From Ardenticatenales bacterium (GTDB lineage Bacteria > Chloroflexota > Anaerolineae > Ardenticatenales > Ardenticatenaceae), in assembly GCA_013812995.1 (NCBI GenBank), contig JACCSL010000285.1:1-10762 (forward strand): a DNA stretch of 10,762 nucleotides. The letters are read 5' to 3'. The notes beneath the pieces are model-generated. The model did not search any database and was not told the origin of the DNA. It saw nothing but the letters and a program-made list of their open reading frames with translations. Both the position numbers and the translations under genes were made by a program. Positions 1-4,871 of the stretch are shown here, piece by piece (position 1 is the first letter of the stretch; each line of letters opens with the position of its first letter).

Positions 1-30
1 TGCATCATGTTGATGGCTATTCCTACCACT

Positions 31-120
31 AGAAAGGAGATTGCCAGGCGATGGCAACGCTTTTCCGCGCCGCGCCATTCCTCCCACGGCTTAAGCTCGT
101 GGGTCTCCTGGCGCTTACCT
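31..120 (+). repeat. Right-end module of a repeated (HEARO/IS605-like) element, copy A
   Basis: This block reappears in expanded form before rpmH (4474-4715). Shared parts, in order, are AGAAAGGAGA (31-40), GCCAGG (43-48), TGGCAA (52-57), GCTTTT, GCGCCGCGCCATTCCTCC, a CCCACG/CGTGGG hairpin (83-103) and CTCCTGGCGCTTACC (105-119). Two unrelated housekeeping genes sharing a long leader that stops at their start codons is best explained by insertion of the same mobile element twice. The CCCACG-type terminal hairpin resembles the subterminal hairpins of IS200/IS605-related elements. Only the right end is in view: whatever lay upstream (omega-RNA, nuclease gene) is outside the window. The left boundary is unknown; the right boundary is at about 119-121. 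Alternative: a shared cis-regulatory leader rather than a transposon end. Confidence 0.6.
33..39 (+). promoter_or_regulatory. AAAGGAG Shine-Dalgarno-like site inside the repeated module
   Basis: AAAGGAG lies 11 nt before ATG 51, the start of a possible leader ORF, and 82 nt before the metG ATG at 122. The metG start has no purine-rich site of its own (GCGCTTACCTT precedes ATG). The same motif recurs at 4476-4482 in the rpmH copy. A 6-bp pairing, GCCAGG (43-48) with CCTGGC (107-112), would loop out most of the intervening RNA. GGAGA (36-40) can also pair with TCTCC (104-108), a competing structure that would hide the site. Confidence 0.4.
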
Positions 121-125
121 TATGA
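51..125 (+). CDS. Possible 24-residue hydrophobic leader peptide coupled to metG
   Basis: ATG 51 opens a 24-codon frame starting MATLFRAAPF and ending LLALTL. It is preceded by AAAGGAG at 11 nt, and its TGA (123-125) overlaps the metG ATG in an ATGA junction. That is the classic arrangement for translational coupling and would supply ribosomes to metG, which has no Shine-Dalgarno of its own. Against it, the frame lies wholly inside the repeated module. The rpmH copy has a TTG at the matching position and a 1-nt length difference, so the peptide is not conserved between copies; the sequence similarity looks like DNA or RNA conservation. The peptide has no recognisable function. It may be a fortuitous ORF that happens to be used. 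Confidence 0.3.
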   Translation: MATLFRAAPFLPRLKLVGLLALTL

Positions 126-4055: not shown

Positions 4056-4083
4056 TTGTCAAAGCAAGGGGAATCGGTATAAT
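4056..4083 (+). promoter_or_regulatory. Sigma70-type promoter of the rpmH-rnpA-yidD-yidC-jag cluster
   Basis: TTGTCA (4056-4061) and a consensus TATAAT (4078-4083) are separated by 16 nt. This is the best promoter in the window and points at rpmH. Transcription should start near 4090, giving an unusually long leader of about 630 nt that includes the stem-loop at 4096-4144 and the whole putative HEARO element. Confidence 0.75.
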
Positions 4084-4095
4084 GACGCCAGGAAA

Positions 4096-4144
4096 AACAC
4101 CGCAACCGGGTGGCTGCAAGGTCGAGCCTACCAGAAGCGGTGTT
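4096..4144 (+). promoter_or_regulatory. Stem-loop at the 5' end of the rpmH leader transcript
   Basis: AACACCGC (4096-4103) pairs perfectly with GCGGTGTT (4137-4144). Inside it GGTGGCT pairs with AGCC(T)ACC through one bulged T, capped by a loop of about 9 nt. It begins within about 10 nt of the predicted transcription start. Possible roles are mRNA stabilisation or an autoregulatory ribosomal-protein leader. There is no T-tract, so it is not an intrinsic terminator. Confidence 0.4.
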
Positions 4145-4169
4145 CTCATATTTAATAGGACAACCATAC

Positions 4170-4175
4170 GGAAGG
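4170..4175 (+). promoter_or_regulatory. Candidate displaced (ancestral) rpmH ribosome binding site
   Basis: GGAAGG sits just left of the proposed element boundary, now about 540 nt from the rpmH ATG. Deleting the proposed element (about 4181-4715) would bring it to 5-10 nt from ATG 4719, a normal spacing. This supports the insertion model but depends on the assumed boundaries. Confidence 0.35.
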
Positions 4176-4189
4176 TATATCGTCAGCGA

Positions 4190-4210
4190 CCCACGGATAG
4201 AATCCGTGGG
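4190..4210. repeat. Left-end hairpin, perfect 8-bp inverted repeat
   Basis: CCCACGGA (4190-4197) and TCCGTGGG (4203-4210) flank a 5-nt loop, TAGAA. It matches the style of the CCCACG/CGTGGG hairpin at the right end of both copies, as expected for strand-specific DNA hairpins bound by IS200/IS605-type TnpA. Its 3' arm shares GGG (4208-4210) with the first stem of the RNA below, so both cannot form at once on one strand. Confidence 0.6.
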
Positions 4211-4436
4211 CTTGTGAGAACAAGCCCGTGCTGACCATGGCCTAAGCCCTTTGGGGGCTACGTTATCCTGGTCATGACACCCTGGAATGCGCGCCAGTTC
4301 CAGGCTCTGTCGCCCAGTGTTAAACAGTTTGAGGGTCTAGGACAGTGCACTAGGCATTACAAGCCATGATAACTTTGGCAAGGCACACATTACCCGCGTA
4401 AGCGGTGGTGGCCCGGGGGGAGCCCGGTCGAAAGAT
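4208..4436 (+). ncRNA. HEARO-like (IscB omega-RNA-like) structured RNA, no nuclease gene attached
   Basis: Successive helices are visible on the plus strand. GGGCTTGT (4208-4215) pairs with ACAAGCCC (4220-4227), a perfect 8 bp closed by a GAGA tetraloop. TGACCA (4232-4237) pairs with TGGTCA (4269-4274), enclosing AGCCC/GGGCT. CCTGGAA (4281-4287) pairs with TTCCAGG (4298-4304). CTGTC (4307-4311) pairs with GACAG (4341-4345). CCGG-rich pairs occur near 4413-4428. The stretch ACAAGCCCGTGCTGACC resembles the ACAAGCC-x-GTGCT segment I recall from the OgeuIscB omega-RNA scaffold and HEARO (Rfam HEARO family). In IscB systems this RNA lies just inside the left end and the guide is the flanking DNA upstream, here about 4160-4180. 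Transcription would come from the promoter at 4056. The family name is a recall-based inference; the structured nature is directly visible. Confidence 0.5.
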
Positions 4437-4473
4437 AAAATCCCCCTCCTCTATTCCATCATCCCTTATCACA

Positions 4474-4717
4474 AGAAAGGAGAAGCCAGGGCAGGACTTG
4501 GCAAGGCTTTTTCAGCGCCGCGCCATTCCTCCTACGCTTGCAAAGATACTGTTGGTAAATTCGGTGTCCGTTCGTTTGACGCCCCAAAAGTGCTGCAAAC
4601 AACAGGGCATTTAGGGAAAACCTTGCCTGCCCATGCGGCTAAATGGAGTGAGGATTACAGGCCAAATGAATTTGCCAACAGCATCTTGCAAAGCGTGGGT
4701 TTCCTGGCGCTTACCCC
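4474..4717 (+). repeat. Right-end module of the repeated element, copy B (expanded hairpin)
   Basis: Matches copy A before metG: AGAAAGGAGA (4475-4483 region), GCCAGG (4485-4490), TTGGCAAGGC, GCGCCGCGCCATTCCTCC (4515-4532), hairpin, then TTTCCTGGCGCTTACC (4700-4715). Where copy A has a 21-nt hairpin, copy B has a long imperfect inverted repeat with a loop of about 105 nt. GCCAGG (4485-4490) can pair with CCTGGC (4703-4708) exactly as in copy A. The module stops 3-4 nt before the rpmH ATG. AAAGGAG at 4476-4482 is the only good Shine-Dalgarno-like site upstream of rpmH within the element. Confidence 0.6.
4531..4699. repeat. Long imperfect inverted repeat inside copy B
   Basis: Arms 4531-4562 and 4668-4699 are complementary over about 32 nt, with a few wobbles or mismatches and two single-base bulges; CTGTTGG(T/C)AAATTC is the best-matching inner part. 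The loop of about 105 nt holds a smaller hairpin (GGGCA...TGCCC with an inner AGG...CCT near 4605-4632). It occupies the place of the short CCCACG/CGTGGG hairpin of copy A, so it is either a lengthened terminal hairpin or a small MITE nested in it. Confidence 0.6.
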
Positions 4718-4718
4718 T

Positions 4719-4871
4719 ATGAAACGTACCTGGCAACCGAAGCGCCGCAAGCGCATTCGTACGCACGGCTTTCGCTCTCGCATGGCAACCAAGGATGGGC
4801 GCAATGTCCTGAAGCGACGCCGCGCCAAGGGCCGCCATCGTCTGACCGTGACGATTGCGCGCCGCTACTAG
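4719..4871 (+). CDS. rpmH: 50S ribosomal protein L34
   Basis: 50 residues, very basic, starting [18 protein letters not shown] and containing the family's R-x-R-M-x-T-x-x-G-R-x-V-L-x-x-R-R-x-K-G-R core. L34 is a late-assembling protein of the large ribosomal subunit that contacts 23S rRNA. A longer in-frame extension back to 4590 exists but is not L34-like; MKRTWQP is the invariant start. The ATG is not preceded by a Shine-Dalgarno (GCGCTTACCCCT) and follows directly on the repeated element's right end, which is strange for a highly expressed ribosomal protein. dnaA, the usual upstream neighbour of rpmH in many bacteria, is not on this side. Confidence 0.98.

Follow-up and report, generated by a model that had tools for sequence, protein, structure and literature searches.

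The window analysed here, meaning the whole stretch of 10,762 nucleotides, is a complete contig of an Ardenticatenales bacterium; the assembly is 5.03 Mb in 1069 contigs and is 83.6% complete. It contains rpmH, the gene for ribosomal protein L34, preceded by a sigma-70-like promoter and, between promoter and start codon, by a structured non-coding block (Table 1). The promoter-like site agrees with the consensus at 11 of 12 positions, one such site being found against 0.6 expected in shuffled sequences, and its −10 hexamer lies 98 nt from the block. An earlier interpretation made from the letters alone (the sequence-only reading) had placed a HEARO or omega-RNA-like element at this position. 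The placement agrees with ours, and the family call was borne out: in a covariance-model scan of the window, HEARO (Rfam RF02033) matches at full length, model positions 1-211 of 211, scoring 151.3 bits where the gathering score is 83 (E = 1.3e-32). The eight further Rfam matches listed for the window at E up to 10 each fall far under their own cut-offs.

Table 1. Features of the window; positions are counted from its first nucleotide.
Feature	Position	Strand	Remarks
Right end of a second element	24-121	+	Abuts the start codon of metG on its 5′ side (ATG 122, ATGA); left end past the contig end
Sigma-70-like promoter	4056-4083	+	TTGTCA 4056-4061, 16 nt, TATAAT 4078-4083; upstream of rpmH and of the omega-RNA
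Predicted omega-RNA guide ATACGGAAGGTATATC	~4166-4181	+	5′ flank of the left end; position relative to the HEARO start
Whole non-autonomous IscB-type element	4182-4718	+	537 nt; parts the rpmH SD from the start codon; insertion point predicted by comparing the sequence with other copies
HEARO/omega-RNA scaffold	4182-4393	+	RF02033, 151.3 bits; left end of the element, begins GTCAGC
SD-like AAAGGAGA within the right end	4476-4483	+	Precedes the 5′ arm of a possible closing stem
GCCAGGG, 5′ arm of the possible closing stem	4485-4491	+	Would draw AAAGGAGA close to the ATG
Right-end hairpin	4520-4718	+	Outer arm GCGCCA, TTCCTCC internal loop, inner stem; through ...TGGCGCTTACCCCT immediately 5′ of ATGA
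Inverted-repeat insert of ~150 nt	4539-4692	+	Apical loop of the rpmH right end; single occurrence in the genome
rpmH (ribosomal protein L34)	4719-4871	+	TIGR01030 and PF00468, residues 1-44 on profile 1-44

The sequence-only reading had drawn the block from 4181 to 4715. The block is real, although its better ends are those in Table 1, with the guide just 5′ of it. As that reading also said, the right-end module is common to another locus: positions 4473-4718 recur at 24-121, before metG. The features of an IscB-type element were found at rpmH, namely two ends that are common to other copies, a target-adjacent motif in the right flank and a subterminal hairpin at the right end. No nuclease or transposase gene was seen among the open reading frames of the window, read by eye, in agreement with the earlier description of a standalone RNA, and no HNH/IscB frame lies directly downstream of the HEARO RNA, the IscB genes being on other contigs. 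The rpmH HEARO is filed here as a standalone RNA copy and not as a complete HEARO-plus-ORF element. What the sequence-only reading missed is that the block is a whole, two-ended, non-autonomous mobile element, that it ends exactly at the start codon, and that this is a habit of its family. As a side observation, the inverted-repeat ends of the insert at 4539-4692 lengthen the inner stem of the rpmH right end; no second copy of the insert was found in the genome.

A search of the genome for iscB and for further copies, which had been proposed with the first description, was productive. It gave 26 HEARO matches, 20 of them above the cut-off, 24 matches to the IscB domain RRXRR and nine to the Y1 transposase (Y1_Tnp). 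All four IscB proteins scanned have both RRXRR and HNH domains, the two tested against NCBIfam IscB NF040563 score 450.5 and 329.2 bits (cut-off 175), and the solved structures related by sequence to the genome's IscB proteins include several IscBs. IscB is apparently encoded intact in this genome. Some IscB-domain matches are partial (C425, C122), and the reading frame of C448 departs from its relatives. The copy closest to the rpmH element (C587) is 85% identical over the first 349 nt, shares both ends with it and carries no iscB between them; elements without iscB and with both ends resolved are those at rpmH and in C587, C94 and C999. Separately, a repeat, GCCAACAGTAGGCGC, occurs 32 times in the genome at up to one mismatch (reversed control, 0) and is followed by TTTAGGCG in the two copies read; its sites (e.g., C94:10145-10159, C448:283-297 and C912:71-85) include HEARO RNAs, one right-end loop and, apparently, an iscB gene.

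The element separates rpmH from what was presumably its Shine-Dalgarno (SD) sequence. This sequence, GGAAGG at 4170-4175, lies inside the predicted guide ATACGGAAGGTATATC, and when the site is rejoined without the element it reads GGAAGG, six bases and then ATGAAACG. The ATACGGAAGGTATATC flank has a predicted anti-SD duplex of −7.1 kcal/mol and fails the strict SD-tetramer rule that is applied to left flanks below. On the other side, the rpmH ATG and the A after it (ATGA, from 4719) constitute the motif that flanks the right end. A start of rpmH at the upstream in-frame GTG at 4590 was judged unlikely, because the sequence ahead of it showed no SD and the rpmH alignment begins at residue 1. 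At 4095-4145, in what remains of the original rpmH leader upstream of the element, AACACCGC...GCGGTGTT form an inverted repeat.

Altae-Tran and co-workers reportedly found in 2021 that an IscB omega-RNA has its 5′ flank as the guide. At up to two mismatches, the 16-nt guide has one match in the 5.03-Mb assembly, its own locus, with no target elsewhere, and the predicted target is therefore the uninterrupted rpmH allele. The sequence-only reading had proposed a guide RNA usable in trans by IscB proteins encoded elsewhere. One part of that idea stands, in that IscB proteins able to use such an RNA are encoded in the genome; action on other loci of the genome finds no support in the single guide match. 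A standalone guide directed in trans at other sites in the genome would accord with the presence of IscB genes on other contigs, but with no second site in the assembly searched, which is 83.6% complete, we consider it very improbable.

Right ends were sought throughout the genome with a 16-nt motif at up to two mismatches, which gave 63 places (23 for the reversed control). By eye, 33 of the 63 were kept as right ends on account of a hairpin and a terminal GGNGCTWA-like motif; an ATG was not a criterion. ATGA (22 copies), ATGG (7) or GTGA (2) stands 4-6 nt past the end motif in 31 of the 33. The other two, C700 and C1015, are followed by ATAA, and the start-codon rule for right ends is not absolute. 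These two right ends are near-identical and have, at about position 120, ATAA, a hairpin and a run of T, with no start codon. The outer hairpin arm GCTCCA is found in all seven ATGG copies and also in two ATGA copies.

Judged from the frames and protein families that follow them, right ends in this genome are mostly at real gene starts. An open reading frame of at least 100 codons opens at 21 of the 29 right ends with at least 330 nt downstream, versus 462 of 1904 control ATGR sites (binomial, 6e-8). The remaining eight are rpmH itself, which has 50 codons, and C330, C122, C498, C700, C1015, C999 and C852, among which C852, C498 and C999 open short frames only. A family match was obtained for 19 of the 29 downstream proteins scanned (C234 was below the cut-off), and 18 of the 19 fit a start at the right-end codon. 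The genes that begin at right ends include rpmH, metG, panC and rplY, and the products of panC and rplY (L25) align from profile position 1. The right end of C122 is inside a glyoxalase-like frame, its downstream protein corresponding to the interior of the glyoxalase domain. An additional standalone element (C94) is located where a gene begins with GTGA; its 433-residue product has four S1 domains, and we call this gene rpsA (S1 protein). As a post hoc remark, three ribosomal protein genes have an element at the start codon, rpmH (C605), rpsA (C94) and rplY (C936), which looks like many for so small a gene class.

The pattern extends, more weakly, to other organisms. Among the best 80 of 175 IscB loci from named genomes, 72 have a HEARO RNA; one locus (L236) was excluded because its HEARO match is cut at the 5′ end, and another (L187) holds two copies, so that 71 loci contributed 72 flanks. 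In Desulfobacter latus, each of the 22 right ends has the form ...CATTTT-ATGA, and the sequence beyond is unrelated. Long frames open at 12 of the 22 (16% of 1056 controls), and 11 of these 12 downstream proteins have Pfam matches, none of which contradicts a start there; the families include semialdehyde dehydrogenase, class I tRNA synthetase (W and Y), LptE and SelO. Among copies with a left flank, 10 of 21 are gene-start-like versus 13.7% of controls, the tandem elements of L187 having been scored negative with the first right end paired to the second left end, and about half of the copies in D. latus lie away from gene starts.

Outside D. latus, 53 of 58 loci were inspected and 37 right ends were picked by eye; six loci were omitted as unclear (L197, L204, L207, L208, L216 and L230), and ten had no identifiable right end. 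Because the 37 were chosen as ending before NTGR, motif counts among them are circular, the frame, left-flank and SD tests less so; moreover, several share one genome or group and are not independent. Long frames open at 23 of the 37 versus 22% of 1110 controls, and 17 are gene-start-like versus 9.5%. The control sites used throughout still contain true start codons and right ends, which makes them conservative. In four of nine annotated plasmid loci the next gene's annotated start is exactly the right-end ATGA; in one it falls 8 nt further on and in a different frame, and the remaining four lack a start there (a tenth plasmid record has no annotation). For example, a Trichormus plasmid has the order parA, element, parB, and the annotated start of parB is the right-end ATGA. 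D. latus and the annotated plasmids thus agree with the start-codon pattern more weakly than does this genome.

Scored by the presence of AGGA, GGAG or GAGG at −18 to −4, with shifted controls, 13 of 26 left flanks in this genome have an SD tetramer versus 41 of 260 controls, and none of 26 do on the antisense strand. The corresponding numbers are 8 of 22 versus 14 of 220 in D. latus and 13 of 36 versus 39 of 360 for the other left flanks. The Ktedonobacteria are the one set in which no SD enrichment was found (2 of 14 versus 21 of 140); the other three of the four sets are enriched. Scanning left flanks for anti-SD pairing energy yielded a modest signal only, the tetramer count being clearer.

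The right ends themselves carry a signal like that of a ribosome-binding site, and two layouts recur. In the first, an SD stands directly before the start codon, about 9 nt away in some copies; in the second, a stem closing the entire hairpin comes after the SD, with 3-12 nt remaining before the start codon. Under a fixed rule, an SD of either layout is present in 28 of 33 right ends in this genome (19 direct, 10 stem, one both) and in 30 of the 37 from named genomes, versus 147 of 1110 control NTGR sites. The outer hairpin stem is perfectly paired in 25 of 33 right ends, in five combinations with both arms varying (GCTCCA/TGGAGC, GCGCCA/TGGCGC, GCTCCT/AGGAGC, GCGCCC/GGGCGC and GCTCCC/GGGAGC); of the remaining eight, six contain one or two imperfect pairs and two yielded no 3′ arm under the rule. 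The arms of the closing stem co-vary as well (GCCAGG/CCTGGC, GCCCGG/CCGGGC and, with one G-U, GCCGGG/CCTGGC). The minimum-energy fold predicted for the rpmH right end lacks the closing stem and has the SD about half paired, and the folds predicted for several right ends hide the SD. Where a right end is of the GGAGC type, the SD is within the outer stem (predicted unpaired probability 0.02 in C870 and 0.33 in C468), and its SD likeness could therefore be a by-product of the hairpin.

An alternative account of these data is that the rpmH block is a plain decay product of an IscB element, stranded by chance, with ATGA being merely the nuclease motif and start codons over-represented because insertions within genes have been purged. 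The NTGR motif would by itself put an ATG beside the right end, copies at non-start sites do exist, and the partial IscB-domain matches (C425, C122) and the one aberrant frame (C448) speak of decay in the family. However, purging of in-gene insertions should leave intergenic non-start sites common, whereas most right ends here with enough sequence are at real gene starts; nor would decay predict the SD enrichment of left flanks in three of four sets, or SD-like signals in right ends far above control. We regard this account as unlikely, though it is the alternative that deserves the most weight.

A further question is whether the block is a leader that belongs to rpmH. The gene was identified in 28 of 29 related loci, most of which have a purine-rich SD near the ATG, and no HEARO-like block is present in these 28 leaders (about 140 nt upstream, read by eye in both respects). 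HEARO occurs in four of 120 genomes of the class, this genome included, two of the four being above the cut-off, and in none of the four other family-member genomes listed. An ordinary leader or riboswitch was rejected, since HEARO alone passes its Rfam cut-off in the window and the related loci that were read lack the block. The sequence-only reading had set its family call against an ordinary leader conserved at rpmH, and what was found is a strong HEARO match, 26 matches in the genome and no such block at related rpmH genes. In an observation on the same loci, the rpmH product here starts MKRT whereas most related L34 proteins start MPKRT (4719-4733); with no proline codon, the start of the gene is ATGAAA, which fits the motif of the element.

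A further alternative is that the HEARO block has been domesticated and controls rpmH, for instance through IscB binding or a switch in the fold of the right end. The 3′ arm CCTGGCGC can pair with either GCCAGG or GCGCCA, giving mutually exclusive folds, and the elements at rpmH, rpsA and rplY could be taken as a sign of regulation. Against this, the lack of the block at the related rpmH genes that were read and of HEARO in the four listed family members means that there is no conservation of the kind that would indicate selection, and we consider domestication improbable.

The explanation that we favour, with a probability of roughly 0.7, is that the rpmH block is a start-codon-targeting transposon of the IscB family (HEARO), with its guide RNA made from a borrowed host promoter and with a substitute ribosome-entry signal of its own. 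A 537-nt non-autonomous element would have inserted between the SD and start codon of rpmH, where the flanking ATGA would serve at once as the target-adjacent motif of the nuclease and as the start codon of the gene. The rpmH promoter would transcribe the omega-RNA, with the rpmH leader just 5′ of the element as its guide. An IscB encoded elsewhere in the genome could load this RNA in trans and cut the uninterrupted allele, which presents both the guide match and ATGA; such cutting of the empty allele may cause the element to be retained, or to be copied back after loss. With the ribosome-binding site parted from the gene by the insertion, an SD-like signal in the right end would keep the gene translatable: at rpmH this is AAAGGAGA, which a stem can bring near the ATG, and in other copies it is a direct SD about 9 nt off. 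The earlier interpretation is partly supported by this outcome, and the observation on which it was built is confirmed.

More generally, HEARO elements with NTG-purine flanks may be parasites of start codons, with a motif that is the start codon, a guide taken from the ribosome-binding region, a promoter provided by the host and a replacement ribosome-entry signal. Hosts would then tolerate insertion into essential genes, while cleavage of the empty site would punish loss. We give this wider proposal even odds. If true, it would explain why IsrB and HEARO-type IscB have NTGA-like motifs, in that the nuclease reads start codons, and it would provide an ecological logic for the IscB/IsrB group, the presumed source of Cas9, in which the invaded gene's promoter makes the guide RNA and the repair of translation is built in. 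It would also yield testable predictions of landing sites and of host tolerance in essential genes, rpmH and rpsA among them.

The original description of HEARO by Weinberg in 2009 is said to have noted insertions 5′ of ATGA or GTGA. New here is that the right ends of guide-RNA elements sit on start codons; in the literature searched, with the main subscription papers outside it, neither a start-codon habit nor an SD-bearing right end was found for these elements. Read from the flanks, the elements studied here have as their motif a bacterial start codon plus a purine, and this likeness of NTG plus purine to a start codon would be the reason why the family favours such codons. According to PMC9581776, IsrB enzymes recognise NTGA (TTGA at 60 degrees), NTG or NTGG, motifs that fit start codons, and the words "start codon" are absent from its main text. 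The IsrB RNA belongs to the same Rfam class as HEARO (PMC12286853). Other motifs given in PMC13180657, NTAAA for OrufIscB, NWRGNA-type motifs for OgeuIscB variants and NWRRN-type motifs among IscBs, differ, so that the match to start codons is not general for IscB.

The element can be compared with several known systems. It is like the HEARO/omega-RNA of IscB and IsrB (RF02033) in its full-length match, in the GTCA at its left end and in the presence of IscB genes in the genome, but unlike them it has no nuclease gene and sits between an SD and a start codon. With the IscB/ISC-type IS200/IS605 elements it shares an omega-RNA left end, a hairpin right end, an NTGR right flank and Y1 genes in the genome, but it is non-autonomous. 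Standalone omega-RNAs of Ktedonobacter were reportedly described by Altae-Tran in 2021; the rpmH copy likewise has no adjacent nuclease in a genome with IscB, and it differs in its place at an essential ribosomal gene and in having its two ends resolved. Finally, IStrons (PMC4227781) are transposons that make their own insertion tolerable to the host, in their case by being spliced out of the RNA. The rpmH element resembles them in this tolerability but would achieve it by a different route, apparently remaining in the mRNA and replacing the ribosome-binding site that its insertion displaced.
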